Assembly (NCBI RefSeq): GCF_021398735.1
Contig: NZ_CP090349.1
Location: 4,855,001 to 4,919,000 of the forward strand
Reading direction: 5' to 3'
Source of the DNA: Methylobacterium oryzae
GTDB taxonomy: Bacteria; Pseudomonadota; Alphaproteobacteria; Rhizobiales; Beijerinckiaceae
DNA: 64,000 nucleotides
Within the stretch, counting starts at the first letter, position 1. Every line of letters starts with the position of its first letter. Below, one piece after another: positions 7,864 to 54,624 of the stretch. The notes beneath the pieces were generated by a model. The model saw only the letters and a list, made by a program, of their open reading frames with translations, searched no databases and had not been told where the DNA came from. The translations under genes were made by a program, and so were the position numbers.

Positions 7864-8475
7864 ATGACAGTTCCTCCATCAGGATCGAACCGAGCCGCCA
7901 CGCGCACCGCCCTCGCCTGCGCGGGTCTCGCCGTGGGCATGATCGGCCTCGCCTTCGCGTCGGTGCCGCTCTACGACGCCTTCTGCAAGGCGACCGGCTA
8001 CGACGGCACGCCCCGGCAAGGACCGGCCCTCTCGGCCTCCGCGGCGCGGACCGACGACAGCATGGTCGTCCATTTCGACACCAACGTCGCGCCGGGGCTG
8101 CCCTGGAAATTCATCCCGGAAGTGAGCAGCGTCGAGGCGAAGCTCGGTGAGACCAAGACGGTCTTCTTCCGCGTGCAGAACACCGGCAGCACGCCCTCGG
8201 CGGGTGTGGCGACCTTCAACGTCCAGCCCGGGTTGATGGGTGGTTACTTCGTCAAGATCGCCTGCTTCTGCTTCAATGAGCAGACGCTCCAGCCGGGCGA
8301 GACGCTGGACGTGCCGGTGGTGTTCTACGTCGATCCGGCCGTTCGGGACGACTCGAACACCGCGCATCTCTCGGAGATGACGCTGTCCTACACGTACTTC
8401 GCCTCCAAGAACGGTCAGCCCGTGAAGGCGGCGGTGGCGAAATCGTCTTCCTCGGGAACGAAGGGCGATTTCTGA
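7864..8475 (+). CDS. ctaG: Cytochrome c oxidase assembly protein CtaG/Cox11
   Basis: Membrane-anchored copper chaperone that inserts CuB into subunit I. It has 203 aa: one N-terminal helix (about 14-36) followed by an immunoglobulin-like periplasmic domain. The copper-binding pair Cys134/Cys136 is in KIACFCFNEQ, and the structural Cys41 sits in YDAFCKATGY. Other family stretches are PWKFIPE and NVQPGLMGGYF. Between the small CoxF-like gene and coxC, as expected. Confidence 0.97.
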   Translation: MTVPPSGSNRAATRTALACAGLAVGMIGLAFASVPLYDAFCKATGYDGTPRQGPALSASAARTDDSMVVHFDTNVAPGLPWKFIPEVSSVEAKLGETKTVFFRVQNTGSTPSAGVATFNVQPGLMGGYFVKIACFCFNEQTLQPGETLDVPVVFYVDPAVRDDSNTAHLSEMTLSYTYFASKNGQPVKAAVAKSSSSGTKGDF

Positions 8476-20820: not shown

Positions 20821-20867
20821 TGGTCGGAGTGGCAGGATTTGAACCTGCGACCCCCACGTCCCGAACG
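20821..20867 (-). other. Attachment site (attL): 3' half of tRNA-Pro(CGG)
   Basis: Read on the minus strand, this is the 3' half of a proline tRNA: anticodon loop TTCGGGA (anticodon CGG), variable loop, T arm GCAGG-TTCAAAT-CCTGC, acceptor strand CACTCCG and the encoded ACCA end. The expected 5' half is absent, because the bases to the right do not form the D arm or the matching acceptor strand. This is the usual scar when a phage integrates into a tRNA 3' end. The complete tRNA gene, rebuilt with the phage copy, should sit at the right end of the prophage. Confidence 0.87.
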
Positions 20868-21538: not shown

Positions 21539-22684
21539 TCAGGTAGATCCCGCAAGTCTCAGCGCAGGCTTGACGGTTGTCTTGCGTCCACCGATCGCTT
21601 GGAGGGCGCCCTGGAAGTGCTCAGGGCAATGGTGGCCGTAGACGTCCTGCAGAACCTCCAGCGTCACGCCGAAATAACCGCACGCCTCCCATGGCGGGCA
21701 ACCGCCGCGGAGCGCCAGGGTGATTGCCGTGTGGCGGAACGAGTGCGGGATGACGTCGGCGCCGAACCCGGCATTCTCACGTACTGAGCGGAAAGCCTTG
21801 TTGATCCGCCCTACCCGCTTGCCCTGCCACTCGACCACGTAGCGGGACGCGATGCCGGTCCGCTCCCAGCGCCGGAGGTGGGCGAGGAGGCGCGGGTGCA
21901 GCGGCGCGGGCGGCTGGCGCTTCTTGGTCTGCCGTGAGCCCGGCGCCCGCCGGTAGAAGGTGCCGTGCTCGAGGTCGACGTAGCCGCTGCCGACCGTCGG
22001 GCGGATGGCGGCGCCGCAGATCGCGCCGGCCCGGGTGCCGGTGTAGATCGCCACCAGGATGAACCGCGCAACATGCTGGCGCGATCGCCGGCCAGTCGCA
22101 TGGCCCTTCTGCACCTCGCGGTAGCGCCAGGCCGACCAGATCAGCTTCGCGACCTCGGAGCGGGTGAGCCACCGCTCCCGCGCGGCGCCCCGTTCCGGCA
22201 GAACCACCGGCACCGGCGAGGCGAGATGCCCCTCGCGGTGGTAGTGGTTGATCGCTGCCCGGAAGTCCTCCAGCTCGCGCCGCGCCACTGCGAGACCGCG
22301 GTGCTCCGCATAATCCCGGCAAGCCCGGCCGGTGACGGTCGCCAGCCGCTTGCCCTCGAAGAACGCCAGGATGTTGCCCAGGCGGCCGGCGATCTCCTTC
22401 GGCCGCGCCTTCTTACTGGCGATGTCGTCGAGGTAGACCGAAACTACGTCGGCGACCCAGACCTCAGCGGGGTCACGGTCGCTCTCCCGCGCGGGCTCGT
22501 GCTTTTCGGCGATGTAGGCGGCGAGCCGCTTTTCAGCCGCTGCAGCCTCATCAGCGCGGCAGCCTGTGCGGATTTTCCGTCGTCCGTCTCGGATGATCCA
22601 GGACGCGTGCCGGGTGATCCGGCCTTCGGAATCCGTCTCTGCCCGTTCGAGCTTGAGGTGGGGGCCTTCGGAGCGGCGCGGCAT
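21539..22684 (-). CDS. int: Tyrosine-type site-specific integrase
   Basis: Catalyses integration and excision of the phage at tRNA-Pro. It has 381 aa: an N-terminal arm/SAM-like core-binding region (about 70-160) and a catalytic domain. Catalytic residues seen are Arg218 (YTGTRAGAI), His314/Arg317 (IPHSFRHTAIT) and the nucleophile Tyr349 (LQDVYGHH). The opening MPRRSEGPHLKLERAE is typical of rhizobial phage integrases. It is the last gene of the leftward operon, next to the att site. Its 5' end overlaps the upstream gene by 241 bases in another frame. Confidence 0.95.
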   Translation of the reverse strand: MPRRSEGPHLKLERAETDSEGRITRHASWIIRDGRRKIRTGCRADEAAAAEKRLAAYIAEKHEPARESDRDPAEVWVADVVSVYLDDIASKKARPKEIAGRLGNILAFFEGKRLATVTGRACRDYAEHRGLAVARRELEDFRAAINHYHREGHLASPVPVVLPERGAARERWLTRSEVAKLIWSAWRYREVQKGHATGRRSRQHVARFILVAIYTGTRAGAICGAAIRPTVGSGYVDLEHGTFYRRAPGSRQTKKRQPPAPLHPRLLAHLRRWERTGIASRYVVEWQGKRVGRINKAFRSVRENAGFGADVIPHSFRHTAITLALRGGCPPWEACGYFGVTLEVLQDVYGHHCPEHFQGALQAIGGRKTTVKPALRLAGST

Positions 22685-26418: not shown

Positions 26419-27647
<1,229 letters not shown>

Positions 27648-31845: not shown

Positions 31846-32111
31846 TGGCAAAAAGGAAGCCGGTTGACCCTCGCCTATCTACACCACTTACATCAGCTCC
31901 ATCGGTCCGAGTGCAGTGCGACGACTGCGGCCACATGGGCTACCTAGATGCAGATCGACTTGCGGACCTTTCGGATAGGGGTTGCATCACGTTCGACGAT
32001 CTTGGGCGCCGACTGAAATGTCACGACTGCTACGCCGCCGGAGGCCTCGGAAAAAGCATATCGCTCGAAGTGGTCGGCACCGATCTTAGACGTACAGCGA
32101 GCCGACGATGA
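31845..32111 (+). CDS. Small zinc-ribbon protein
   Basis: An 88-aa protein with two Cys pairs, VQCDDCGHMGYLD and LKCHDCYAAGG, about 30 residues apart, a likely zinc ribbon. GTG 31839 is an alternative start two codons earlier and is nearer to the GGAGG at 31824. The 3' end overlaps the end of the convergent repressor gene by 26 bases. Function unknown; possibly DNA-binding. Confidence 0.65.
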   Translation: MAKRKPVDPRLSTPLTSAPSVRVQCDDCGHMGYLDADRLADLSDRGCITFDDLGRRLKCHDCYAAGGLGKSISLEVVGTDLRRTASRR

Positions 32112-32769
32112 CATGTACCGATTTAACCAGGGAGCGATGAAGCTCGATCTCCTCGCCTGGATTGTGCTGCCAGAGCACTAGCTTCGTCGGCGTCAATTTT
32201 ACGAATTCCTTGATGTAGCCCTCTGGCGCTTCGCCTTCATTCTCCGGGTGTAGCTGGACCACGACGTCGTCGCCCTGGCGCGGCGGCCGGTGGGGATGAA
32301 CCCAGACCTTCTCACCCGGCTTGAAGCGCGGCCGCATGCTGTCTCCGACGACGTAGGTTGCGTATGCCTCGTCGACGTTCTCAAGCTGAGGCGGACGTGG
32401 AATCGTCTCGATCACCTGCCCGTTATAGATGAGCTTGCCGTCGTCTCCCCCGCGTGAGACGCCAAGGACGTCCAATGGTGGCCCATAAGATGGTGCCAGC
32501 TCCCGCCGCGACGCATTCGGCTTCATCGTCACGGTCGCGCTGCCCCTCGGCTCGACAGGTCCAGGCTCAGCCGTGCCGAGCAGCCATTCGCTCGATTTGC
32601 CGAGTTCGGCGGCGACCTTGAACAGATTTTCCAGCTTGCCGCGGCCTCGCTTGAGGGCGTCGCGGACGTAGGTCTCTCCTAGGCCAGCGGCCAAGGACAG
32701 CTCCTTCATCTCGCGACCCTGCGCCTGCATCTCGTCTTCGAGGCGACGGCGAACTGCGTTCTCGATCAT
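32086..32769 (-). CDS. Prophage repressor (HTH plus S24/LexA-like C-terminal domain)
   Basis: Maintains lysogeny by blocking early promoters. It has 227 aa. The N-terminal helix-turn-helix is at about 22-65 (ELSLAAGLGETYVRDALKRG). The C-terminal S24 domain has Ser144 in YVVGDSMRPRFKPGEKVWVH and a probable general-base Lys in GYIKEFV (Lys187). The usual Ala-Gly cleavage pair before this domain is not evident; the equivalent place reads VSRGGDDG. Self-cleavage on SOS is therefore uncertain, and an antirepressor route is possible. Start ATG 32769 follows the operator GTGGGAGACTGCCCAC, suggesting autoregulation. Confidence 0.92.
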   Translation of the reverse strand: MIENAVRRRLEDEMQAQGREMKELSLAAGLGETYVRDALKRGRGKLENLFKVAAELGKSSEWLLGTAEPGPVEPRGSATVTMKPNASRRELAPSYGPPLDVLGVSRGGDDGKLIYNGQVIETIPRPPQLENVDEAYATYVVGDSMRPRFKPGEKVWVHPHRPPRQGDDVVVQLHPENEGEAPEGYIKEFVKLTPTKLVLWQHNPGEEIELHRSLVKSVHVIVGSLYV

Positions 32770-32770
32770 A

Positions 32771-32846
32771 GTGGGAGACTGCCCACCGTTCTGCCCATCG
32801 CCAATATGGCAGATGCCCATTGACTTGATGGGCAAATGCCCTTTAT
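32771..32846. promoter_or_regulatory. Right operator cluster beside the repressor gene
   Basis: Three related sites: GTGGGAGACTGCCCAC (32771-32786), ATGGCAGATGCCCAT (32806-32820) and ATGGGCAAATGCCC (32828-32841). The last contains the same 12-mer as the left cluster. Spacing of roughly 20-35 bases resembles a multi-site operator in which occupancy sets repressor and Cro-side expression. Confidence 0.8.
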
Positions 32847-32847
32847 C
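32820..32847 (+). promoter_or_regulatory. Right early promoter (PR-like), nearly leaderless
   Basis: -35 TTGACT (32820-32825), a 16-base spacer containing the operator GGGCAAATGCCC, and -10 TTTATC (32842-32847). The next ATG is at 32857, so the predicted message would have a leader of only a few bases. No Shine-Dalgarno sequence precedes that ATG, which agrees with leaderless translation as in some CI/Cro-type switches. Confidence 0.7.
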
Positions 32848-32856
32848 TCGCCTGCC

Positions 32857-33075
32857 ATGAGCGAGACCAGCCAGCTTCTCCGCGAGATCGAGTGCTTCAT
32901 CCGCGATGCGCGGATGGCAGCAAGCACGTTCGGCCGGAAGGCCGTAAACGACGGCAAGCTGGTCAGTCGCCTCCAAGCCGGGAGCACGGTGACGCTGGAG
33001 AAGGCGTCGCGCATCCGAGCGTACATGCGCGACAACCCGCCCTCAGCCTCCCCGGTCGAGGAAGCGGCCGCGTAA
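32857..33075 (+). CDS. Small helix-rich regulator-like protein at the Cro position
   Basis: A 72-aa protein, MSETSQLLREIECFIRDARM then ASTFGRKAVNDGKLVSRLQA and LEKASRIRAYMRDN. The middle reads like a short helix-turn-helix (TFGRKAVNDGKLVSRL). This protein type is common in Rhizobiales and often annotated as hypothetical. As the first gene from the right promoter, opposite the repressor, it is a good candidate for a Cro-like protein. The stop overlaps the next start (TAATG). Confidence 0.72.
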   Translation: MSETSQLLREIECFIRDARMAASTFGRKAVNDGKLVSRLQAGSTVTLEKASRIRAYMRDNPPSASPVEEAAA

Positions 33076-39168: not shown

Positions 39169-39358
39169 TACTTATACTGATATTACGCACTTAGATAAGT
39201 CAGTAATAATTATGAATTTTCAAAATAGCCAACTTGGCCAGAGCCGTCAAAAATGTGACGTATCATTGTCAAATTTATACTGACGATAAAAAATGAAATG
39301 CTTTACAATTCCGACGTGGTCAATTATGATATGGATATTTCACGCGGAGTGATTGGCC

Positions 39359-40708
39359 ATGACGGATCTTGGCAGAAAGAAAAGGTTGTCAGCTCGTGCT
39401 GCGTCGGCGATTACCGCTTCAGTATTTCTGATGATTTTTTCCGCAATTGAATTGGCTCCCTTATGGATCAATCGGAATGACCACAGTCCAGATAGGTCGC
39501 AAAATAAATGTGATCCCATCCTAAATCAGATACAAGACCCCCGAAAAACAATACGACCTAATGATGATTTGAAGATCATTAGACTCACAAATTCTGGAGA
39601 ATTTGTGAGTCGGTGCGATTTAACAAATGTCCTCTATGAATTGAACTGGGATAAGAAAAGGCCAGCCTGGGCTTTCGGTCCCTCTTCAGATGACCAAGCT
39701 CCGCACCTTCCAAAACTCGCCTTGCTGTACATACACGGTTGGAAGCATAGTGCCGACAAAGACGATGATGATCTTAAGCATTTCAGCAGACTGGTCGAGA
39801 ATTTGCGAGATAAATATCGAGACCATAAACGCGTTGTTGGCATTTATGTAGGCTGGAATGCGAGCGCTGATTTCTGGTCGTGGGCTAGTTTTTTAGAAAA
39901 CACCACGTTCTGGGTAAAAAAGAACAATGCCGATCGAATAGCGCAGAGCGCGGCTGTAACCATGATTGTTAGCGCAGTCGGTAGCGCCACAAAAAAAGCA
40001 AATAATCCGAAAGATCAGTTTATTGCCATAGGTCATAGTTTCGGGGCCCGGCTGCTTTATTCTGCAACTGCGCAATCGCTAGTCACCGCAGCTCAGCAGG
40101 CGCACCCTGGTTATCCAACCGGTACTTACTCGCGCATAGAAGGAGTTGCGAATGCGGTCATACTACTCAATCCCGCGTTCGAGGCATCAAGATATTCAAT
40201 TATCAACGACTTTACCCGGAATGAAGAGCGCTTTCTTGCATCTCAGCCGCCGCTCTTAATCACTGTTTCATCACGGGGGGATCTGGCGACGCGGGATGCG
40301 TTCCCGCTCGGGCAATGGCTCGGACTTGCGAGAAGTGAAAGAGAGAAAACAACGCTTGGAAATTATAGGCCCTTCGTGACGCATGCGTTGGAAAGATCTT
40401 CTAAAGAAAAATGCGCGCATGTAGACGGAGACGGTGCGTTTGAAAACAACTTCTCAGCCAATTTTTGCTTGCGCCGAATTTCTCCTCAGCAGGAGAGTAT
40501 CACAAATTATAAAGGCGGTGGATCAATACAGTACAACAATCCGTTTATAGTCGCGCAAACAGACGAAACAATAATTAAAGATCACAACGATATTTGGAAT
40601 GATGATTTCACATCATGGATGACGGAAATAATCCAAGGTTTGGAACAACGCCACGAATTGGTGCCTGGGGCTCAGCCGGAAAGCGATGCTCCTAGCATCA
40701 GTAGATAA
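39359..40708 (+). CDS. Membrane-anchored alpha/beta hydrolase, AT-rich cargo gene
   Basis: A 449-aa protein (ATG 39359, GGAG nine bases upstream; TTG 39353 also possible). One N-terminal helix (about 18-37) is followed by an alpha/beta hydrolase: LALLYIHGWKHSADKDDDDL (strand and oxyanion HGW at 126-128), RVVGIYVGWNAS, and the nucleophile elbow IAIGHSFGARLLY (Ser227). ILLNPAFEAS and VSSRGDLATRDAF fit the acidic and later core parts. Related chromosomal hydrolases have YVGWRG here. GC content is far below the backbone, so it was probably gained as a unit. Lipase/esterase action at the envelope is possible. Confidence 0.8.
   Translation: MTDLGRKKRLSARAASAITASVFLMIFSAIELAPLWINRNDHSPDRSQNKCDPILNQIQDPRKTIRPNDDLKIIRLTNSGEFVSRCDLTNVLYELNWDKKRPAWAFGPSSDDQAPHLPKLALLYIHGWKHSADKDDDDLKHFSRLVENLRDKYRDHKRVVGIYVGWNASADFWSWASFLENTTFWVKKNNADRIAQSAAVTMIVSAVGSATKKANNPKDQFIAIGHSFGARLLYSATAQSLVTAAQQAHPGYPTGTYSRIEGVANAVILLNPAFEASRYSIINDFTRNEERFLASQPPLLITVSSRGDLATRDAFPLGQWLGLARSEREKTTLGNYRPFVTHALERSSKEKCAHVDGDGAFENNFSANFCLRRISPQQESITNYKGGGSIQYNNPFIVAQTDETIIKDHNDIWNDDFTSWMTEIIQGLEQRHELVPGAQPESDAPSISR
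39582..39611. repeat. Perfect 30-base palindrome inside the hydrolase gene
   Basis: Arms of 14 bases, GACTCACAAATTCT and AGAATTTGTGAGTC, separated by GG. It lies about 220 bases into the coding region and codes for part of RLTNSGEFVSR. It would form a stable hairpin in RNA or act as a symmetrical protein-binding site. Confidence 0.85.
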
Positions 40709-43653: not shown

Positions 43654-44529
43654 ATGAGTGACTTACCCGCGATTTCAGGGTCGCGGCGAACCGCTCGCGC
43701 CCGGGGCAGAATAAAAACCCAAGAGGCCGCGAAGGCGGTTCTGGCCACCCGAGCGGTGGCCTACCTCCGGGTCTCCACCGATGAGCAGGCCGCTCACGGT
43801 TTCGGGCTAGAGACGCAGGAGCGAGCCCTCCGCGCCTTCGCCGAGAGCCAGGCCTACGAGCTTGTCGCGGTCATCACCGATGCGGGCGTGTCCGGAGCGA
43901 CCCGGCCCGCCGATCGCGCCGGCTTCGGCGAGGTCCTGCAGCTCGCGGCCGATGGGAAGTTCTCGGTGCTGCTGGTCTACCGGTTTGACCGGCTGGCCCG
44001 CGAGATCCGGTACGCGGTTACCACGGTGGCGGATCTCGCCGAGACGCACGAGGTTGGCATCCGGTCCGTCACCGAGCCGATCGACACGGCGACGCCGATG
44101 GGGCGCACCGTGTTCGCCATCCTCGCCGGCATGGCGGAATCGGAGCGCTTCACGATCCGGGACCGGACCGCAGGCGGGAAGCTCGCCAAGGCCGGCCGGG
44201 GCGGCTTCGCTGGGGGCCGGGTCCCCTACGGCTACGCGACCGACCGAGCCGGCGGCCTTGTCATCGTTCCGGAGCAGGCGGCGATCGTCCGGCGCATCTT
44301 CCGAGAGCGGGGGCGCGGCAAGCGCCCGCGGGCGACCCTCCAGGCGATCGCCGAGGGGCTGAACCGCGACGGCATCTCCTCTCCGACCGGCCGCCGGTGG
44401 CGGCACGATACGGTCGGCTACGTCCTCGACAACCCGAAGTACCGCGGGGCGGTCGAGTACCTGTTCACTTGGACCGGCGCCGAGCAGCACGTGCTCCAGC
44501 CGGGCGCCCATGAGGCGATCATCCTTTGA
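43654..44529 (+). CDS. Short serine recombinase (resolvase plus recombinase domain)
   Basis: A 291-aa protein. Resolvase domain (about 33-170): VAYLRVSTDEQAAHGFGLET (Arg39, nucleophile Ser41), VYRFDRLAREI and GRTVFAILAGMAESERFTIRD. A Recombinase domain follows (GGRVPYGYATD, RIFRERGRGKRPRATLQAIA, PTGRRWRHDTVGYVLDNPKYRG). It stops where large serine integrases would continue with a zinc-ribbon and coiled coil, so it is about half their length. It is a second recombinase in a phage that already has a tyrosine integrase, just before the terminase block. The next gene starts in its stop (TTGA). Confidence 0.9.
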   Translation: MSDLPAISGSRRTARARGRIKTQEAAKAVLATRAVAYLRVSTDEQAAHGFGLETQERALRAFAESQAYELVAVITDAGVSGATRPADRAGFGEVLQLAADGKFSVLLVYRFDRLAREIRYAVTTVADLAETHEVGIRSVTEPIDTATPMGRTVFAILAGMAESERFTIRDRTAGGKLAKAGRGGFAGGRVPYGYATDRAGGLVIVPEQAAIVRRIFRERGRGKRPRATLQAIAEGLNRDGISSPTGRRWRHDTVGYVLDNPKYRGAVEYLFTWTGAEQHVLQPGAHEAIIL

Positions 44530-45263: not shown

Positions 45264-45550
45264 GCCAGTTCCAGCCCGGCCAGTCCGGCAACCCTGGCGG
45301 CCGCCCAAAAGCGTCGGCCAAGGTGCGCGACCTCGCCCGCGCGCATACCGAGACAGCTCTGCAAGTCCTCATCGACATCGCGACCGCCGGTGAGAGCGAG
45401 GCCGCGCGGGTGGCGGCCGCCAACGCCATCCTGGATCGCGGCTACGGCAAGCCGACCCAGCCCATCGACGGCGATGGCGAGGGCGGTGCGATCCCGACCG
45501 GCATGACGGTCACCTTCATCCGGCCCGGGCAGCCGCCCGATGCAGGTTGA
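45260..45550 (+). CDS. DUF5681 protein, probable small terminase subunit
   Basis: A 96-aa protein with the typical opening FQPGQSGNPGGRPKAS, then KVRDLARAHTETALQVLIDI, AARVAAANAILDRGYGKPTQ. DUF5681 proteins precede large terminase genes in many phages and take the place of the small subunit that recognises the packaging site. It overlaps the large terminase by 11 bases. Confidence 0.85.
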   Translation: MSQFQPGQSGNPGGRPKASAKVRDLARAHTETALQVLIDIATAGESEAARVAAANAILDRGYGKPTQPIDGDGEGGAIPTGMTVTFIRPGQPPDAG

Positions 45551-46862
45551 GTTCCCGGAGAAGCTCGCCTTCCTGTTCGAGCCGGCCCGCTACAAGGTCG
45601 CCTATGGCGGCCGCGGCGGGGCGAAGTCGTGGGGGTTCGGCCGGGCGCTCCTCATCATGGGCGCGCAGCGGCCGCTCCGGGTGCTCTGCGCGCGCGAGTT
45701 CCAGAACAGCATCGCGGAATCGGCGCACGCGCTGTTCGCGCAGCAGATCGACCTCCTCGGGCTCGATGGCCTTTACGAGGTCCAAGAGAAGCGGATCCTC
45801 GGCCGGAACGGCACCGAGTTCATCTTCAAGGGGCTCCGGCACAACGTCGCCTCGGTGAAGTCGACTGAGGGCGTCGATATCGCGTGGGTTGAAGAAGCCC
45901 GCACCGTCTCGAAGACGTCCTGGGACGTGCTGATCCCGACCATCCGCAAGGAAGGCTCGGAGATCTGGATCAGCTTCAACACCGAGCTGGAGGAGGACGA
46001 GACCTACCAGCGCTTCGTGAAGAAGCCGCCGACCGGCGCGCGGGTCGTAAAGATCGGCTGGGAGGACAATCCCTGGTTCCCCGACGTGCTCCGGCAGGAG
46101 GCGTTGGACCTGAAGGAGCGCGACCCGGTCGCCTACGAGACGGTCTGGGGCGGCAACTGCAAGGCCGTGCTCGACGGCGCGATCTACGCGAACGAGATCC
46201 TGGCGGCGACGACCGCCAAACGGTTCACCAAGGTCCCGTACGACCCGACGAAGCCGGTTCACACCTTCTGGGACCTGGGCCGGGCCGACAAGACCAGCAT
46301 CTGGTTCGCCCAGATTGTCGGCTTCGAGTTCCGGCTGATCGACTTCTACGAGAACCGCGGCCACGCGCTCGGCCACTACCTCGAGGTGCTGAAGGAGCGG
46401 GCGCTCCCGGTCGAGCAGGGCGGGAAGGGCTACGTCTACGGCGAGCACTGGCTTCCGCACGATGCCCGCAACGAGCTGCTCGCCTCCGAGCGCACGATCG
46501 AGCAGCAGATGTGGGCGGCCGGGCACCGTGTCCGGATCACGCCCCGCCTGACGGTCGCCGCCGGCATCGACGCGGCCCGCAAGATCTTCGCGCGGTGCTG
46601 GTTCGACGAGGAGGCCTGCGCCGACGGGCTCCAGGCGCTCCGAAACTACCGGTTCGACGTCGACCCGAACACGCAGGCCTTCTCCAAAGCGCCTTTGCAC
46701 GACTGGGCGAGCCACGCAGCCGACGCCTTCCGGTACTTCGCCATCGGCATCGCCGAGCCCCGTGAGGACGATCCGCCCCCGGATGGTCCGAACGACGTCT
46801 CCGCGCGCCGGCGCCGCCGCGAGGCGGAGGAATCGACATCAGGATCAGGTTGGGCGGCATGA
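45540..46862 (+). CDS. Terminase large subunit (PBSX/XtmB type)
   Basis: ATP-driven DNA packaging motor and headful/cos nuclease. It has 440 aa. Walker A is GGRGGAKSW (about 23-31), Walker B is VDIAWVEEA (112-120), and the coupling motif SFNTE is near 146. Nuclease acidic residues are Asp245 (HTFWDLGRADKTSIW) and the late Asp in HDWASHAADAFRYFA. All motifs are intact. It overlaps the portal start (ATGA). Confidence 0.95.
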   Translation: MQVEFPEKLAFLFEPARYKVAYGGRGGAKSWGFGRALLIMGAQRPLRVLCAREFQNSIAESAHALFAQQIDLLGLDGLYEVQEKRILGRNGTEFIFKGLRHNVASVKSTEGVDIAWVEEARTVSKTSWDVLIPTIRKEGSEIWISFNTELEEDETYQRFVKKPPTGARVVKIGWEDNPWFPDVLRQEALDLKERDPVAYETVWGGNCKAVLDGAIYANEILAATTAKRFTKVPYDPTKPVHTFWDLGRADKTSIWFAQIVGFEFRLIDFYENRGHALGHYLEVLKERALPVEQGGKGYVYGEHWLPHDARNELLASERTIEQQMWAAGHRVRITPRLTVAAGIDAARKIFARCWFDEEACADGLQALRNYRFDVDPNTQAFSKAPLHDWASHAADAFRYFAIGIAEPREDDPPPDGPNDVSARRRRREAEESTSGSGWAA

Positions 46863-48817
46863 CGGACACGGACGCGCCCGCCATCGACGGCGAGGCGGTG
46901 GATCAGGCTGGGCTCGACCGCGAGGCGCTCTTCCGCCGCCTGCGCGGCCAGTACCGCACCGATCGGGAGGCCTCCGCGAAGTGGCGCGAGGATGCGCGCG
47001 AGGACTTCGACTTCGTGGCCGGCCGCCAGTGGAGCACTGAGGATGAGGCCGTGCTGCGCCAGCAGGGCCGGCCGCCGGTGACGTTCAACCGGATCCTGCC
47101 CGTCATCAAGGCGGTGGCCGGCTCCGAGGTAAACAGCCGGCAGGACATCCAGTACCTGCCCCGCGAAATCGGCGACGCGGCCAAGAACGAGCTGCTCACC
47201 GAGGCCTCCCGCTACCTCGCGGACGAGGCCGAAGCGGAGGACGAGGAATCCGACGCGTTCGTCGACTGCGCGATCTGCGGCATGGGCTGGGTCGAGATGC
47301 GTCTCGACTATGAAACCAACCCGGACGGCGCCTATGTCGAGGACCGGATCAACGCGCTGGAGATGATCTGGGACGCGGCCGCGCGGAAGCGGAACCTCGC
47401 CGACGCCCGCCGCCTGTTCCGCGCGAAGACGATGGACCGAGCCGAGGCCGAGGCGCTCTTCCCCGAGGTCGACCCTGCGCTCCTCGACGCCGCCTGGGCC
47501 GAGGATCGTGACGGTGACGGCGAGCACCGCGAGATCCAGCCCGGCGAGCGCCGCATCGACCGCCCGGGCCAGGATGCCGACGCCTCGTCCTCGCGCGTGA
47601 CGATCGTCGAGTGCCAGTGGTGGGAGCGCGCCCGCGTCGCGCTGGTGATCGACCCCGCGACCGGCGAGCCCCAGGAGATGGAGCCGAAGCAGGCCGCCAT
47701 CCTCACCCGCCGCGCCGAGATGCTCGGCATGCCGGTGAAGGTGTTTCACCGGATGAAGCGGGTCTACCGCCGCGCCTTCCTCGGCGCCGTGGTGCTGGAC
47801 GAGGGCCCTGCCCCGGCCGGCGACCAGTTCTCCTACGCCTGCCTGACCGGTGACCGCGACCACAACAAGGGCACGTGGTTCGGCATCGTGCGGCCGATGC
47901 GCGATCCGCAGCGCTTCGCCAACAAGTGGCTGTCCCAGACCCTCGACATGCTCAACCGCCAGTCCAAGGGCGGCTGGATCATGGAGAAGGGCGCCGTCCC
48001 CGACCAGCGCGCCTTCGAGGCCAGCATCGCCAAGCCCGGCGCGGTGTCGTGGGTCTCGGACGGCGCCCTGATGTCGGCGCGCATGAAGGAGAAGCCGCTG
48101 CCGGTCCTGCCGTCGGGCCACTGGCAGCTCATGGAGTTCGCGATCGGCTCCATCCGCGACACGTCGGGCGTGAACCTGGAGCTCCTCGGCCAGAAGCAGA
48201 ACGACCAGGCCGGCGTGCTGGAGTACCAGCGCAAGCAAGCCGCCATGACGATCCTGGCGACGCTGTTCGACTCGCTGCGTCGGGCCCGGAAGCACATCGG
48301 CCGGGTGCGCCTGTTCTTCATCCAGAGCTACCTCTCGGACGGCCGCCTGATCCGGATCGTGGGCGACGAAGGCGCCAAGGTCGTGCCCCTCATCCGCGAC
48401 CAGACGATGGGCGATTTCGACGTGGTGATCGACGATGCCCCGGCCTCGCCGAACCAGCAGCAGATCGTGTGGCAGACCTTCACCAGCGTCCTGCCGATCA
48501 TCAAGGACATGATCACCCCGCAGGTCCTGCTCGAGATCCTGCCGTACTCGCCGTTCCCGGCCTCGTTCGTGGCCAAGATGCGCGACCTGCTCGCCCAGTC
48601 CGCCGACACACCGGAGCAGGAGCAGCAGAAGGCGCTCGCCGTGCAGTCGGCTGTCGCCAAGATCCAGGACATGACGGCCGGCGCGAACCTGAAGAACGCC
48701 AAGGCCGGGCGCGAGCAGGCGCTCACCCACCAGGATCACGCTTCGGCCGCGGTGCAGCTCGCCCAGCTCCTCACGGCGCCCGAGGCCGCAGCCCAGGCCG
48801 CGGAAGCCGCCGCCTGA
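46859..48817 (+). CDS. Portal protein (P22-like family)
   Basis: Twelve-subunit ring at one capsid vertex through which DNA enters and leaves. It has 652 aa, close to P22 gp1 size. Recognisable parts: WREDAREDFDFVAGRQWSTE, VTFNRILPVIKAVAGSEVNS, YETNPDGAYVEDRINALEMI, SYACLTGDRDHNKGTWFGIV, NKWLSQTLDML, TSGVNLELLGQKQNDQAGVL. The C-terminal third is helical and Gln-rich (barrel-like). This type points to a short-tailed phage. Confidence 0.93.
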   Translation: MTDTDAPAIDGEAVDQAGLDREALFRRLRGQYRTDREASAKWREDAREDFDFVAGRQWSTEDEAVLRQQGRPPVTFNRILPVIKAVAGSEVNSRQDIQYLPREIGDAAKNELLTEASRYLADEAEAEDEESDAFVDCAICGMGWVEMRLDYETNPDGAYVEDRINALEMIWDAAARKRNLADARRLFRAKTMDRAEAEALFPEVDPALLDAAWAEDRDGDGEHREIQPGERRIDRPGQDADASSSRVTIVECQWWERARVALVIDPATGEPQEMEPKQAAILTRRAEMLGMPVKVFHRMKRVYRRAFLGAVVLDEGPAPAGDQFSYACLTGDRDHNKGTWFGIVRPMRDPQRFANKWLSQTLDMLNRQSKGGWIMEKGAVPDQRAFEASIAKPGAVSWVSDGALMSARMKEKPLPVLPSGHWQLMEFAIGSIRDTSGVNLELLGQKQNDQAGVLEYQRKQAAMTILATLFDSLRRARKHIGRVRLFFIQSYLSDGRLIRIVGDEGAKVVPLIRDQTMGDFDVVIDDAPASPNQQQIVWQTFTSVLPIIKDMITPQVLLEILPYSPFPASFVAKMRDLLAQSADTPEQEQQKALAVQSAVAKIQDMTAGANLKNAKAGREQALTHQDHASAAVQLAQLLTAPEAAAQAAEAAA

Positions 48818-48876
48818 CCCCTTCGCCCGCCGGCGGCGCACGCCGGCTTTCGTCCCCTTCACGTCACGAGGACCAC

Positions 48877-49887
48877 ATGACCGATACCGACCTCGCCATC
48901 GGCGGCGGCGAAGACGCCTTCACGCCCGAGGAGCAGGCTGCCTTCGAGGCCTACGAGCGCGGCGACGAGACGCTCGCCTCCGATGGTCTGACCCCTCCGG
49001 CCGCCGAGCCCGCTCCGGCTGCTGCCGAGCCGCCCGCGGCCGATCCCGAGACCGCCGAGCCCGCGGCTGCCCCCGAGGCGCAGCCGCGCGACGAGAAGGG
49101 CAAGTTCGTCCCGCACGGCGCCTTGCACGAGGAGCGCGAGCGTCGGAAGGCGGTCGAAAAGGAGCGCGACGAGCTGCGCGAGCGCTTCGCCCGCGGCGAC
49201 GAGCGCCTGCGCATCCTGTCCGAGGCGATGCAGCGTCCGGCGACGCCTGCCCAGCCCGCCCCGGAGCCGGTGAAGGTGCCGGACCCGGCCGAGGACATCT
49301 TCGGCTATGCGAAGCACCTGGAGCAGCAGATCGAGGCGCTGCGCACGGGGCAGACTCAACTCACCGAGAGCCAGAAGCAGGCCGAGGAGACCCGCCGCGC
49401 CAACGACGAGCGGAATGAGGTGATCGGGTTCTACCAGCAGGACCTCCGGACCGCGATCCAGGCCGATGCGTCGGTCGCGGACGCCTACGAGCACCTGTTC
49501 GCCGGCCGCGTGGCCGAGCTGACCCTGTTCGGCATGGACCGGAAGGACGCGATCGAGGCGGTGCGCGATGAGGAGTTCAACCTCGCCCAGACGGCCCGCC
49601 AGCGTGGCCAATCGCCGGCGGCCCTGATCGCCGCGCTCGCCAAGACGCGCGGGTTCGCCCCGAAGGCGCCGGAGCCCGCCCCGGCCCCCGCCCCGCAGGA
49701 GACCGCCGCCGAGAAGGCCGCGCGCGCCGCCGCCGGACAGGCCGGCCCGGGCCGCTCGCTCTCGGCCGCCGGTGGTCAGCCCGCCGGTGAGATCACGCTG
49801 GAGACGCTGTCCAGCATGTCCGAGGCCGACTTCGAGAAGCTGATGACCGCGAACCCGGCCCGCGTCCGCGCTCTCATGGGCGGCTGA
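48877..49887 (+). CDS. Capsid scaffold protein
   Basis: A 336-aa protein with GAGGA before the ATG. Acidic, Ala/Pro/Glu-rich N-terminal region, then long charged helices (HEERERRKAVEKERDELRER, HLEQQIEALRTGQTQLTESQ) and a low-complexity C-terminal part ending ANPARVRALMGG. Position between portal and capsid and the coiled-coil character are typical of phage scaffolds, which shape the procapsid and then leave. Identity rests on layout, not on a catalytic motif. Confidence 0.78.
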   Translation: MTDTDLAIGGGEDAFTPEEQAAFEAYERGDETLASDGLTPPAAEPAPAAAEPPAADPETAEPAAAPEAQPRDEKGKFVPHGALHEERERRKAVEKERDELRERFARGDERLRILSEAMQRPATPAQPAPEPVKVPDPAEDIFGYAKHLEQQIEALRTGQTQLTESQKQAEETRRANDERNEVIGFYQQDLRTAIQADASVADAYEHLFAGRVAELTLFGMDRKDAIEAVRDEEFNLAQTARQRGQSPAALIAALAKTRGFAPKAPEPAPAPAPQETAAEKAARAAAGQAGPGRSLSAAGGQPAGEITLETLSSMSEADFEKLMTANPARVRALMGG

Positions 49888-49939
49888 TCCAGTCGAGAGT
49901 ATCGGTCCTTGTTGAGCAGGGCCGCCAACCATTCGGTGG

Positions 49940-52306
49940 TCAAATTGCCATAGCAGGCGGCTGCGAAGTTGTTAGACGTTCAGGGCGACCGATCAAGTAG
50001 CCCTGAACCGCATCGCAGCCGAAGCGCCTAAGAAATTTTAGTTGGTCCGCTTCTTCGACACCCTCAGCTATAGTTCGGATATTCATGTCGCGAGCCATTT
50101 GGGTGATCGCCTTGACCACCGCCATGCAGTGATTGTCACCAAGCGCTGCCGCGACGAAACTACGGTCAATTTTGATCCGGTCCAGCGGCAAATCGCGAAG
50201 ATGAGCCAGTGAGGAATATCCTGTCCCGAAGTCGTCCATCGCGATCTTCAAACCGAGCCGGCGCAGGGCTGAGAGGGTGTGAACGATCTGGCGGCCATCC
50301 TCGACTAACGCTGTCTCCGTCAGTTCGATTTCCAATCGGTGTGGGGGCAAGCCGCTTTCTGCGAGCGCCGACGTGATGTGAGCCAGAAGCATCGGGGAAC
50401 GGAACTGTATGGCCGATACGTTCACGGCGACATGCTGATGGGCGTGCCAAAGTGCTGCTTGGCGGCAGGCTTCAGTCAACACCCACGCCCCAATCGGCAC
50501 GATGAGACCAGTCTCTTCCGCCAGTGGAATGAAGCTAGCCGGCGAGACGAAACCTCGCGTCGGGTGCTGCCACCGAATGAGTGCTTCATAGCCGACAATA
50601 TTGTCATCAGCGAGCGACATGATGGGCTGATAGGCAAGATGAAATTGCTGCTCGGTCAAAGCAAGACGAAGGTCGTGCTCCAAGGCATGCCGCTCAGCAA
50701 CGGCCTCCATCATGCCCGATGCATAGCGAGCCGCGCGACCGCGTCCGTGTCGCTTCGCTTCGTATAGAGCGATGTCGGCACGCTGCATCAGCTCTTCAGG
50801 GCTTGACTGATCTTCGTTTCCACTCAAGCCAATGCTGCAGCCTATGACAACAGTGATATCATTTAGATCGTATGGTTTTTCGACTTCGATAATAATATTT
50901 TCCGCTAAGCGGTTCACCGATTCGATGCCCAATTGGGTGATCACCGCCATTTCGTCGCCGCCAAGCCGTGCCACGAAGCCTGTCTCACCGATTTGTGAGC
51001 GCAGTCGTTCTGCGACTTCAACGAGCAGGCGATCGCCGATACCATGGCCGAAGGTGTCATTGACAGCTTTGAAGCGATCAAGATCGATCAGTAGCAGGTC
51101 AAACTGTTTCTCTTTGGAATACAGCAATTCCATATATTCGATGAGCGATCGGCGGTTGGCGAGCCCTGTAAGAGGGTCATGGTAAGCGAGATGAAGGATT
51201 TCCTGTTGGGCTCTTTTTTCTTGAGAGATATCATCGAAAGTCAATACCGCGCCGCCATCGATTGGCTGGCATACAATGGAAAGAATGCGTCCGTCTTCAA
51301 ATATATGCTCCACCTGTGTTTCTGTACTTCGCGCCATCCAAGCTCGATGATTTGCAAGCACGCGCTCAGTTCGGTGCTGGTCCCAGCCATTGGCACGGCC
51401 AGTAAGCTCTAAAAACTGTGTCAAAGTCATGCCGCGGACAAGATTTCCAGGGGGTAGCATGAGCATGGAGCGCAATTTTTCATTGTATAGTTCGATTATC
51501 TCAGTCCCAGAAATCTTCAGAATGCCATTGGACATATTCTGAAGGGTGGTTGTGAGAATGCGGGCGTGCGCGGCCTCTTGTCCTTCAAAACGTCTCGCAA
51601 CTACTAGGGCAAGAAGAGTGCCGAATAGCAGCGTAGCCGCTCCCGTCGCGGCAAGAATACCGAGTTGCAGCTGCATGATTGGGAGCAACTGGTCAGACGA
51701 TGCGCCAACGAGCTTCGTGCCGGCAATGGAAACGAAGTGCGTCCCACAGACAGCCGCAACTATGAGGGAAACGGTGACCAGTGGCTTATAGGCGCGTCGC
51801 GCCATAATTTGAGCAGTCGCCATAAAAACTGCGCCAATCAGGCAAGCAATGACATTGAGACCGGCCGACTGCGTCTGAGCGCAATCCTTCAACGCAGCCA
51901 TGCCAATGAGATGCATGGCTGCGATACCCAAGCCGGATATCGCTGCGGCTGCTGCACTCGTCCACGCTCGTGAACATTGCGTTGATAGAGCCAATGGGCC
52001 ACCCACCGCGACGATCGCCACTAGTGCGGAGCAGAGGGTTCTAGTAGTATCGTAATTCAGGAGGAGATCAGTACGGTACCCGAGCATAGCGACGAAGTGG
52101 GTGGTCCACACCCCTGTCCCCGCGACTACAGCTGTCCCCACCATCCACCATTTTCTATCGACCTTCGTCGCGGTCTCAGCCTGATGGACGAAGTGTACGA
52201 GCAACCACGCGCTTAGATAGCATATGGCAATCGCCGCCAACACAAAGCCAGCGGCCTGATTGTCGAGTAGAAATGAGGACGGCAGGTGCATAATGAGATT
52301 GTGCAC
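49940..52306 (-). CDS. MHYT-GGDEF-EAL cyclic-di-GMP signalling protein inserted in the head genes
   Basis: A 788-aa bacterial signalling protein (GTG 52306; ATG 52291 also possible). The MHYT sensor covers about 15-240 with seven helices and the motifs WTTHFVAMLGY, AAMHLIGMAAL, CGTHFVSIAG. A PAS-like part follows, then GGDEF with RLGGDEMAV (449-453; Met instead of Phe). The EAL domain has YEALIRW (Glu574), VNVSAIQF, ELTETALV, AMDDFGTGYSS (691-699) and TIAEGVE. EAL residues look complete, so phosphodiesterase activity is likely; cyclase activity is possible. It is clearly AT-richer than its neighbours, reads leftward, and separates scaffold from capsid. Confidence 0.95.
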   Translation of the reverse strand: MHNLIMHLPSSFLLDNQAAGFVLAAIAICYLSAWLLVHFVHQAETATKVDRKWWMVGTAVVAGTGVWTTHFVAMLGYRTDLLLNYDTTRTLCSALVAIVAVGGPLALSTQCSRAWTSAAAAAISGLGIAAMHLIGMAALKDCAQTQSAGLNVIACLIGAVFMATAQIMARRAYKPLVTVSLIVAAVCGTHFVSIAGTKLVGASSDQLLPIMQLQLGILAATGAATLLFGTLLALVVARRFEGQEAAHARILTTTLQNMSNGILKISGTEIIELYNEKLRSMLMLPPGNLVRGMTLTQFLELTGRANGWDQHRTERVLANHRAWMARSTETQVEHIFEDGRILSIVCQPIDGGAVLTFDDISQEKRAQQEILHLAYHDPLTGLANRRSLIEYMELLYSKEKQFDLLLIDLDRFKAVNDTFGHGIGDRLLVEVAERLRSQIGETGFVARLGGDEMAVITQLGIESVNRLAENIIIEVEKPYDLNDITVVIGCSIGLSGNEDQSSPEELMQRADIALYEAKRHGRGRAARYASGMMEAVAERHALEHDLRLALTEQQFHLAYQPIMSLADDNIVGYEALIRWQHPTRGFVSPASFIPLAEETGLIVPIGAWVLTEACRQAALWHAHQHVAVNVSAIQFRSPMLLAHITSALAESGLPPHRLEIELTETALVEDGRQIVHTLSALRRLGLKIAMDDFGTGYSSLAHLRDLPLDRIKIDRSFVAAALGDNHCMAVVKAITQMARDMNIRTIAEGVEEADQLKFLRRFGCDAVQGYLIGRPERLTTSQPPAMAI

Positions 52307-52842
52307 AACAAAGATTTTTTCCGTCTAAACTATCGTAGTGAACGACTTATCTCAGATGATAAACTCGGGGCGATCTTCGCAACTACTAATTGCAATATCA
52401 TGATCGTAGCCATACGTCTGCGCTATCGAACAAGTTTAGGTGAGGCGGTTCAGGTGGTGGATGCAACGGCCCGCATTCATGGGTCGTTGGGGGGCCCCGT
52501 TTAAAGCGCAACGGCGTTTCCGGGTTGACCCGACGGGCGAACCCGCGCAAAGGACTATCCGTCGCGAGACGTGCGGGCCCTGCCCCGTCTCGGCGCCTTC
52601 CCGAGTTCCGTCCGGTCCCGTGCCGCACCCTGCTGCAAGGCGGGGCGCTCGCGCGTGTCCGGTCGTTCGTCTGATCCACGCCAGGATCCGCCCGGCCGCG
52701 TCAGTGCCTTCGTCCGCGCCACGCACGGCGCCCGTCCGACCCCGTCCCCAACGGTCACTCTGGGGCCCGGCTTCCGTCCGCGTGCCGACGCACGGCCCGC
52801 ACGAACCCTCCCCCACGGAATCCAGCCTTCAGAGGCACCCCC
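52307..52842. other. 536-base region between the c-di-GMP gene and the capsid gene
   Basis: The first 130 bases are AT-rich and should hold the promoter of the leftward signalling gene. From about 52,440 the DNA returns to phage-like GC and carries repeat copy B, then about 270 bases of leader before the capsid ATG. Frames open across it on both strands look like shadows. A capsid-gene promoter or regulatory leader is likely. Confidence 0.55.
52526..52571 (+). repeat. Structured repeat, copy B (capsid leader)
   Basis: Related to 42761-42805: TGACCCG-A-CGGGCGAA, hairpin CGGG-CGAA-CCCG, linker GCAAAGGACTATC, then the identical hairpin CCGTCGCGAGACG. Differences fall mainly in the linker, while both stems and the GCGA loop are kept. 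It lies about 270 bases before the capsid ATG. Confidence 0.65.
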
Positions 52843-53940
52843 ATGTCCTACACCGCGTTCGGGCAGAACGACCCGATGGCCGTCAAGCTGTGGAGCAAGA
52901 AGCTCGCAGCCGAAGCCAACAAGTCCATCGACATCGATCCCCTGATCGGCACCGGCGACGACGCCGTGATCCAGGAGAAGACCGAGACCAAGAAGGGCAA
53001 CGGCGACCAAGTCACCTTCGGCCTGCGCATGCAGCTCCGCGGTCCGGGCTTCTCCTCGTCCGACGTGGCCGAGGGCAACGGCGAGCAGATCGGCGTCAAC
53101 TCCGACAAGGTCACCATCGACGAGCTCGGCGAGGTCGTCGGCGTGAAGTCGGAGAACACGATCGACCAGCAGCGCGTGCCGTTCAATCTGCGCGAGACCG
53201 CCCGCGCCGGCATCGCCGACTGGTTCCAGACCCGCCGCACGGTGTGCTTCTTCAACCACGTCTGCGGCTTCACCCCGGCCAACCAGCTCAACGGCGCCAA
53301 GAAGTTCACCGCCAACAACGTCGTCACCGCGGCGACGGCAGGCCGCATCTTCCGCCCGAATGGCCGGGCCGACGACGCCGCCCTGACCAACGCGGACGGC
53401 TTCACCCTCGACCTGATCGACAAGGCGGTCGAGCTCGCCAAGACCGGCGGCAAGAACCGCAAGGTCATGATCCGCCCGGTCGTGGTCGGCGGGCGCAAGC
53501 TCTACGTGCTGTACCTCGCCTCCGAGCAGGTCACGTCGCTGCGCACCAACACCGGCGCCGGCCAGTGGCTCGACATCCAGAAGGCCGCGATGGCCGGCAT
53601 GCAGTCGAGCAAGAGCCCGATCTTCTCGGGCGCGCTCGGCGAGTACAACGGCGTCGTGCTCCGCGAGGCGCAGGACGTCACGGCGGGCGTCTCGCCCGAC
53701 GGCATGTCCGCTGTGCCGCTGACCCGGCGCGCGGTGCTGCTCGGCGCCCAGGCGGCGACCATCGCCTACGGCAAGGCCGGCGGCGACACCCGGTACCGCT
53801 GGAACGAGGAGCTGCTCGACCACAAGCGCAATCTCGAGGTCTCGGCCTGGGCGATCTGGGGCCTGAAGAAGACGACCTTCAACGGCGACGACTTCGGCAC
53901 GATCGTGATCCCGACCTACGCCAAGCCCGTCGACGCCTGA
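52843..53940 (+). CDS. Major capsid protein, N4-gp56 family
   Basis: A 365-aa HK97-fold capsid subunit of the N4-gp56 type. Recognised by MAVKLWSKKLAAEANKSIDI, GDQVTFGLRMQLRGPG, VNSDKVTIDELGEVVGVKSE, RVPFNLRETARAGIADWFQT and the end KTTFNGDDFGTIVIPTYAKP. Length is typical and the frame is intact. Separated from the scaffold gene by the inserted signalling gene. Confidence 0.93.
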   Translation: MSYTAFGQNDPMAVKLWSKKLAAEANKSIDIDPLIGTGDDAVIQEKTETKKGNGDQVTFGLRMQLRGPGFSSSDVAEGNGEQIGVNSDKVTIDELGEVVGVKSENTIDQQRVPFNLRETARAGIADWFQTRRTVCFFNHVCGFTPANQLNGAKKFTANNVVTAATAGRIFRPNGRADDAALTNADGFTLDLIDKAVELAKTGGKNRKVMIRPVVVGGRKLYVLYLASEQVTSLRTNTGAGQWLDIQKAAMAGMQSSKSPIFSGALGEYNGVVLREAQDVTAGVSPDGMSAVPLTRRAVLLGAQAATIAYGKAGGDTRYRWNEELLDHKRNLEVSAWAIWGLKKTTFNGDDFGTIVIPTYAKPVDA

Positions 53941-54034: not shown

Positions 54035-54427
54035 GTGCCCACCAACGTCACCCCGGTGCAGCCGCCCGCGCGCGAGCTGCGCGAGCAGGTCTCGCACACC
54101 ATCCGCAAGACCGTGAACTTCGCCAACGGCGCTTTCGTCATGCCGGCCTCGCTGCCGGCCGGCGCGCTCATCACCTCGCTGCTCGTGCTGGTAGAGACCG
54201 CCTTCACGGCCGGCGCCTCCCTCACGCTCGGCACCTCCGCCGGCGGCAACGACCTCGCCGCCGCGGCCGACACCGCCGTCACCGCGGCCGGCGTGAAGCG
54301 CGTCGACACCGCGACCCTGAAGGGCCGCCTCGCCGCCGATACCCCCGTCTACGGCACCATCGCCGGTGGCCCGGCAGCGGGCGTGGCCACCCTCGTCCTG
54401 CACTACGCCCCGGACAACGACGCCTGA
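54035..54427 (+). CDS. Phage head or decoration-like protein
   Basis: A 130-aa protein from GTG 54035 with GGAGG upstream. Ala/Gly/Thr-rich and beta-looking: NFANGAFVMPASLPAGALIT, LLVLVETAFTAGASLTLGTS, TPVYGTIAGGPAAGVATLVL. Composition and place just after the capsid suggest a head decoration or stabilising protein. No specific family match. Confidence 0.6.
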   Translation: MPTNVTPVQPPARELREQVSHTIRKTVNFANGAFVMPASLPAGALITSLLVLVETAFTAGASLTLGTSAGGNDLAAAADTAVTAAGVKRVDTATLKGRLAADTPVYGTIAGGPAAGVATLVLHYAPDNDA

Positions 54428-54624
54428 TGTCGGCGTGGATGCTGCTGCACCTCGGCGCGGCAGTCCTGGCGGCGGAGCCCAGCGCCCCGCCGTCGCCCTC
54501 GAAGACGGAGACGGTGCCCGATGCCGACACAGGACGGGCGGCCGACGCTCGCCGATCTGTACGCGGAGATCGCGGACGACATCGAGCGCGCGGACCTTGG
54601 CCCGCAGATCGCGACCGCCGTTGA
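54427..54624 (+). CDS. Small protein with hydrophobic start
   Basis: A 65-aa product, MSAWMLLHLGAAVLAAEPSA then a Pro/Ser and Arg-rich tail that overlaps the next gene by 104 bases. TGATG coupling with the upstream gene supports initiation. The overlap leaves doubt about its real length. Function unknown. Confidence 0.4.
   Translation: MSAWMLLHLGAAVLAAEPSAPPSPSKTETVPDADTGRAADARRSVRGDRGRHRARGPWPADRDRR

Follow-up and report, generated by a model that had tools for sequence, protein, structure and literature searches.

We describe a gene for a c-di-GMP enzyme with MHYT, PAS_7, GGDEF and EAL domains which lies, reversed, among the head genes of a Methylobacterium prophage. The place between scaffold and capsid in which it stands is an exchange site, near-empty in some phages and occupied by unrelated genes in close relatives. 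The gene is real and foreign, codes for a probably functional c-di-GMP enzyme, and is carried as phage cargo in this exchange slot. Taken as a whole, we consider it likely that it represents moron-like, swappable cargo of a temperate podovirus-type Methylobacterium phage, that such cargo would benefit the lysogen or the prophage, and that this particular cargo would lower c-di-GMP.

The prophage and its reversed gene

The window, that is, the whole stretch of 64,000 nucleotides analysed here, belongs to a 6.65-Mb genome and holds part of a prophage of 58,514 bp, which lies between two copies of an exact 47-bp repeat. The repeat is the 3' end of tRNA-Pro(CGG), and the whole tRNA stands at the far end. 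The phage was taken as temperate because its Peptidase_S24 protein was read as a CI/LexA-like repressor. The features on which the analysis relies are given below, in window coordinates except for attR.

20821..20867, attL, exact 47-bp repeat of the tRNA-Pro 3' end
21539..22684, minus strand, tyrosine-integrase-like gene next to attL (weak PF00589 match, below cut-off)
32086..32976, minus strand, Peptidase_S24 protein, the putative repressor
45540..46862, plus strand, terminase large subunit (Terminase_3, Pfam)
46850..48817, plus strand, P22-like portal protein (P22_portal, Pfam)
48790..49887, plus strand, scaffold-position gene, 365 aa, left flank of the slot
49888..52524, exchange slot, from the scaffold stop to the TTGACC box, without DNA homology to sister phages
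49940..52306, minus strand, MHYT-PAS_7-GGDEF(GGDEM)-EAL cargo gene, 788 aa (783 aa from the ATG at 52291)
52525..52842, plus strand, conserved capsid leader, 318 bp, beginning TTGACCCGACGGGC, right flank of the slot
52843..53940, plus strand, major capsid protein (Phage_capsid_3, Pfam)
genome C1:4934288-4934334, attR, outside the window

The gene is called 'scaffold' for its place between portal and capsid and its conservation there in relatives; it has no match in Pfam or PHROG. The capsid protein matched 147 of 50,697 phage records, with identities of 49% to Rhizobium phage RHph_Y1_10, 43% to Paracoccus phage KLEP18-1 and 33% to the Bcep22-like phage BcepIL02; when it was searched against 397 genomes of the family and 397 of the order, both sets including genomes of the same genus, 3 and 4 genomes respectively outside the genus gave a match at E 1e-40. 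Elsewhere in the prophage, a serine recombinase near the terminase genes (43654-44529) has a 55-80% match in four sister prophages, and a forward gene of 451 aa at 39353-40708, AT-rich (about 45% GC) and without a Pfam match, is a possible further cargo gene.

The cargo gene is an open frame of 788 codons running from 52306 to 49940, and the databank prediction of 783 aa fits a start at an ATG five codons in. All of its Pfam domains lie above cut-off (MHYT 63-120, PAS_7 255-368, GGDEF 374-523 and EAL 545-775), so that MHYT, GGDEF and EAL are joined on one chain. The first-pass annotation, made from the sequence alone, had proposed a leftward MHYT-GGDEF-EAL gene between scaffold and capsid, richer in AT than its surroundings. 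The open frame and the Pfam domains bear out the former, with PAS_7 in addition, and the base composition bears out the latter, the GC content being 0.544 where the adjoining 3-kb stretches have 0.709 and 0.691, a composition unlike that of the phage as is characteristic of morons. Searches of the gene with an E. coli-type consensus returned one promoter-like site, on the other strand, where 1.5 were expected, and no terminator-like site where 2.5 were expected.

An exchange site between scaffold and capsid

We looked at 99 loci around related capsids, in 84 of which the scaffold gene was present. Among the 15 others, 11 have less than 0.8 kb of sequence ahead of the capsid, and four (L101, L113, L137 and L142) have 3.6-10 kb ahead of it without a recognised scaffold. 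Loci were classed as Methylobacterium type when the capsid was at least 63% identical to that of the window, the hosts of metagenomic ones being assumed; this applied to 44 of the 84, and removal of 12 as the same or near-identical slots left 32 distinct slots. Additional loci from a portal search were read in part and stand outside the slot counts. The coding-score ORF picker missed AT-rich genes, the MHYT gene among them, and plain ORFs were therefore also listed.

When the window was compared with nine sister prophages, DNA homology ended at 49836-49891, the scaffold stop being at 49885-49887, and resumed at 52514-52525 in eight of them and at 52651 in one. TTGACC was present in 32 of 32 slots, 251-337 bp ahead of the capsid, with a column identity of 1.00 over the box and mostly 0.3-0.6 in the preceding 60 bases. 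The gap between scaffold and capsid ranged from 362 to 7626 bp across the 32 distinct slots. Cargo was found in 26, and six near-empty slots (362, 377, 381, 549, 660 and 712 bp) had no closed ORF of 100 aa; the MHYT gene is thus an extra gene at a place where some relatives (L088, L120 and L127-L130) have the neighbours adjacent, as expected of a moron. Outside the Methylobacterium type, the gap was at most 800 bp in 35 of the other 40 loci with a scaffold (33 of 38, plus L095 with 159 bp and L096 with 167 bp). Gaps of more than 800 bp occurred in 26 of 32 Methylobacterium-type loci versus 5 of 38 others (Fisher p = 8e-9, a value that ignores relatedness), and long cargo is therefore typical of the Methylobacterium-type phages.

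In three of the smallest sites the scaffold stop is followed by a GC-rich hairpin and then by TTGACC, the hairpins having folding energies of -24 to -29 kcal/mol (z -2.2, -3.7 and -3.0). In L100, a fourth small slot, the hairpin folded no more stably than shuffled sequence (z -0.7), and the same holds for the beginning of the slot in the window (z -0.95). Hairpin and TTGACC may be a terminator and a promoter, an arrangement at the slot edges that would account for tolerated insertions.

Contents of the slot

Signalling or motility genes were found in 7 of the 26 filled slots, comprising three c-di-GMP enzymes (that of the window and two HD-GYP proteins), two chemoreceptors, Crp-type regulators and a flagellin. 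Beside that of the window, the slots include the following.

G043, HD-GYP and MCP genes, both reversed; capsid 99% identical to that of the window
L098, PAS-PAS-MCP gene, reversed; capsid 100% identical
L097, Crp-type regulator, DUF6894 gene and response regulator-Crp fusion; capsid 100% identical
G058/L085, sigma-70-type factor, response regulator-HD-GYP and two Crp-type regulators
G031/L087, Crp-type regulator next to a forward gene without a match
G054/L084, flagellin
L103, metagenomic relative, Mrr-type nuclease (L103:1642-3051)
L086, L117, L118 and L119, AT-rich genes without a Pfam match

Slot contents differ between phages whose capsids are 94-100% identical. Some of the cargo is nevertheless related from slot to slot: the Crp proteins of L085 and L087 and the fusion of L097 are related at 39-84%, a small companion gene is common to L087 and L097, and the two cargo MCPs align over 190 residues (48%). 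As regards INDEPENDENCE and background, the two cargo HD-GYP proteins are 37% identical to each other. A Bradyrhizobium relative, L093, has an HWE histidine kinase at the same place.

No recognised signalling or motility gene was present in the other 19 filled slots, which hold the Mrr-type nuclease, AT-rich genes without a known domain, or mostly phage-like forward genes. The AT-rich genes (L086:8301-9557, L117:8868-9503, L118:8213-9592 and L119:7621-9408), whose slots belong to a group with M. fujisawaense among its members, are possible new defence or conversion genes. The remaining 14 slots contain mostly forward genes, several of them common to different phages (for example 73% over 164, 79% over 144 and 52% over 246 residues), with matches that include a collagen repeat, a GH26-like domain and a sub-threshold GDSL-like one; these genes probably belong to the phages themselves. 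An additional AT-richer stretch without identified genes occurs in two of these slots, G101/L081 and G015/L068.

Exchange and origin of the cargo

The slot of G058 (L062/L085; Methylobacterium sp. Leaf108) repeats the beginning of the capsid leader and, after it, the 3' end of the scaffold gene; these extra copies lie at L085 (identical to L062):8210-8293 and 8303-8420 and are 72-78% identical to the window. These copies sit between two Crp genes which are 84% identical to each other, and are the mark of tandem cargo; they would result if one filled slot recombined with another, or from a tandem duplication. They suggest that exchange would proceed by homologous recombination through the conserved flanks.

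By tblastn the MHYT protein was found in one of the 32 distinct slots, its own. Among phage records, 177 matched its GGDEF/EAL part and none over 80% of the query, and a scan of viral contigs, which reaches close relatives only, returned no relative of the gene. A core gene of these phages was ruled out by the tblastn and viral-contig results, and the possibility, raised at the outset, of a fixed core gene lacking an insertion signature fails on the same count. The picture of foreign, reversed cargo inserted at one point in the head module of a temperate phage holds, since relatives are without the gene or have others there.

A copy of the present host's own gene was likewise ruled out, the nearest relative in its own genome being 52% identical among the matches listed. 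The nearest database relatives are 77-79% identical, with Methylobacterium and one Microvirga MAG among those named. Because of this difference, the source of the gene was probably a different member of Methylobacterium or of a near genus, and not the present host. None of the phage query proteins matched in the flanks of the MHYT relatives L070-L080. Ten of 11 measured relatives are less AT-rich (GC 0.575-0.712), and the broken copy of G106 has 0.539; to the 77% relative, dN is 0.14 and dS about 2.1, which is near saturation.

The encoded enzyme

All catalytic EAL motifs searched for are present (EALIRW 574, NVSAIQ 629, ELTE 661, DDFGTGYS 691, KIDRSF 712, AEGVE 747 and QGYL 768). In the GGDEF signature the protein has GGDEM at 449 in place of the canonical residues, and no RxxD I-site occurs in register; the F to M change and EALIRW read as they had been given in the first pass. 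Among 12 aligned relatives, row L037, taken from the wrong strand, being excluded from the count, GGDEM occurs in 8, GGDEL in 3 and GGDEF in 1. GGDEM in 8 of 12 relatives argues for a family trait and not for decay, and with the EAL motifs intact the c-di-GMP enzyme looks functional. GGDEM and the missing RxxD weaken the case for an active cyclase, and leave the family membership as it is. MHYT domains are associated with gas or redox sensing.

The HD-GYP motifs are intact in both L057 and L085. Given the intact EAL domain, and since each of the three c-di-GMP enzymes among the cargo includes EAL or HD-GYP, both of them hydrolytic, the net effect of the cargo enzyme would be that of a phosphodiesterase. 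The direction of net c-di-GMP change is not readable from sequence, and the GGDEF domain may be active too.

Possible role of the cargo and alternative readings

In the reading that we favour, the slot follows the terminase-portal-scaffold block and precedes the capsid leader, the MHYT gene would be a swappable, moron-like insertion, and DNA would be swapped there by recombination through the flanks. The lysogen would make a membrane-bound sensor enzyme from the gene, and its EAL phosphodiesterase would lower c-di-GMP on MHYT/PAS input, which may favour motility over attachment in the host; cargo that is retained would help the lysogen or the prophage. To regard the MHYT gene as a candidate for lysogenic conversion, as in the first pass, is reasonable. 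Part of the slot pool (HD-GYP, MCP, Crp and flagellin, with CsrA in distant relatives) points to phage control of host lifestyle.

The slot contents were compared with the host background. The window genome has 28 GGDEF, 7 HD_5, 49 MCP and 18 Crp-HTH members over cut-off, and with an assumed host gene total of 6,336 the scanned cargo ORFs gave 10 of 40 in the GGDEF, HD-GYP, MCP and Crp families versus 0.64 expected. Since three slots have Crp genes of a single lineage, lineage and tandem copies were also collapsed, giving 6 of 36 versus 0.58 expected (P 2e-5). The 40 ORFs are part of the cargo ORFs (L093, L090, the first gene of L089 and others being left out), and some of them, such as overlapping frames in L067/L091, are unlikely to be genes. 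As the families were named after the cargo had been looked at and the ORFs were scanned in part, the enrichment is a strong hint and not a test.

It could be envisaged that the slot takes any DNA, because a terminator-like hairpin precedes it and the capsid leader follows, and that the MHYT gene is a neutral passenger, one of many host genes that arrive by chance recombination and are mostly lost later. The diversity of the cargo, with its differences between phages of near-identical capsids, and the AT-rich genes without a known domain in several slots are what such arrivals would give. However, the signalling families, albeit chosen afterwards, stand some tenfold over host background with copies collapsed, the catalytic motifs are intact in all three c-di-GMP enzymes, and dN is low, though it mostly reflects time outside the phage. 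We regard a neutral passenger as unlikely.

A role in conflict is about equally unlikely. The gene might change, through c-di-GMP, a surface of pili, flagella or polysaccharide such that competing phages are blocked, or might degrade cyclic-dinucleotide immune signals; the Mrr-type nuclease in the same slot of L103 and HNH genes in two phage records fit with this, as does the control of a phage receptor by c-di-GMP in E. coli, reported in PMC8669472. Yet it would be odd for an anti-immune enzyme to be a membrane sensor that takes PAS input, and PADLOC gave little on 17 distinct cargo proteins (15 of Methylobacterium-type slots plus those of L093 and L131, the window gene being left out), for which reason defence cargo was set aside. 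PADLOC matched the L103 nuclease to candidate defence families (best E 1.7e-8), both HD-GYP proteins weakly to Cas3-HD and L086 to BrxA (E 0.0097), with no other match among the 17. That the phage is dead and the MHYT gene an insertion of chromosomal kind, not phage cargo, is very improbable: an IS3-type transposase does lie within the prophage (26742-27647), but the head genes are open and conserved, the att repeat is exact, and many related prophages, as well as isolated phages, carry cargo between the same two genes.

If the reading of swappable, beneficial cargo is true, motility and c-di-GMP control would have a mobile reservoir in Methylobacterium phages, found at a single, predictable address in the genome. 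The effect of a prophage on host lifestyle would then be directly testable, and phages whose capsids are nearly identical while their slots differ already exist among the sequenced strains. The stretch from scaffold stop to TTGACC box also offers a simple search rule for new cargo.

Relation to known phage cargo

The same place was read in 14 annotated phage records, 12 of them with capsids 31-49% identical to that of the window, and in two plasmids with head genes. A CsrA-like gene stands there in 8 of the 12, annotated in seven (BcepIL02, JC1, CSP3, DC1, SopranoGao, Parlo and Pavtok) and found by tblastn in Erwinia phage Stean as an unannotated frame (L259:2697-2849) between the post-portal gene and the capsid gene; the eight include four Lessieviruses and two Pavtokviruses. 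RHph_Y1_10 and KLEP18-1 have HNH genes at this place, POI1126 has small genes, three of them reversed, and nothing is annotated in Mae-JY35, in phiARM81mr (capsid 27%), in Vibrio phage 1.205.O (24%) or in the Pseudochrobactrum plasmid. On the Chromobacterium plasmid, a small gene matches CsrA weakly (39% over 44 residues, E 2e-4). The 32 Methylobacterium-type slots yielded no credible CsrA, the two matches there being 11-17 residues long (E 0.008-0.009).

CsrA at the scaffold-capsid place of Bcep22-like phages has already been called a moron, with one virion peptide, in PMC9144972, and PMC7366521 gives a survey of phage csrA genes. The window phage has a capsid homologous to theirs (33% to BcepIL02) and the same order of portal, next gene and capsid; it is a relative of Lessievirus by its head module, and at this capsid identity not a member of the genus. 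The likeness to the csrA moron of Lessievirus (JC1, BcepIL02, DC1 and CSP3) lies in a host-lifestyle regulator between the post-portal gene or genes and the capsid, and records of Lastavirus, Parlovirus and Pavtokvirus have csrA at the same place. In contrast to the Lessievirus CsrA, a small forward gene in every Lessievirus examined, the Methylobacterium slot is larger, often has reversed genes, and differs in nearly all phages. We tentatively suggest, as a possibility somewhat less probable than not, that in podovirus-type phages with this head-gene family, from alpha-, beta- and gammaproteobacterial hosts, the scaffold-capsid place would serve genes by which the host's choice between sessile and motile life is steered, CsrA in one branch and, in the Methylobacterium phages, a rapidly changing set of c-di-GMP phosphodiesterases, chemoreceptors, Crp-type regulators and flagellin.

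MucR and NbdA are proteins with an MHYT membrane sensor followed by GGDEF and EAL, and MucR is not known to have a PAS domain. The cargo protein resembles them in these domains, and the EAL structure of MucR, 5m1t, is among the matches listed; its family differs from MucR in the PAS_7 between MHYT and GGDEF and in the prevalence of GGDEM. A mucR gene has been reported in two sargassum viruses (PMC11295528), and a diguanylate cyclase gene on a Mu-like phage contig was proposed to affect the host (PMC7785012). The latter is alike in being phage-borne with a proposed host effect, and differs in being a cyclase on a metagenomic contig, without an exchange slot in the passages that describe it. Thus the first-pass view of c-di-GMP enzymes as unusual phage cargo stands only in part, both because these virus-borne genes are in print and because 3 of the 26 filled slots carry such enzymes. 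The MHYT gene alone would add one member to an established kind. What is new is the slot, whose contents are rich in signalling genes and quickly exchanged, and no description of it or of such content in Methylobacterium phages was found in the literature searched.

A second variable place lies behind the capsid-neighbour gene, at 54427-54521 of the window. Long forward ORFs stand there in G017 and G097 (L086:11592-13399 and L088:11590-17104), and similar gaps occur in L117, L118, L119 and L113.
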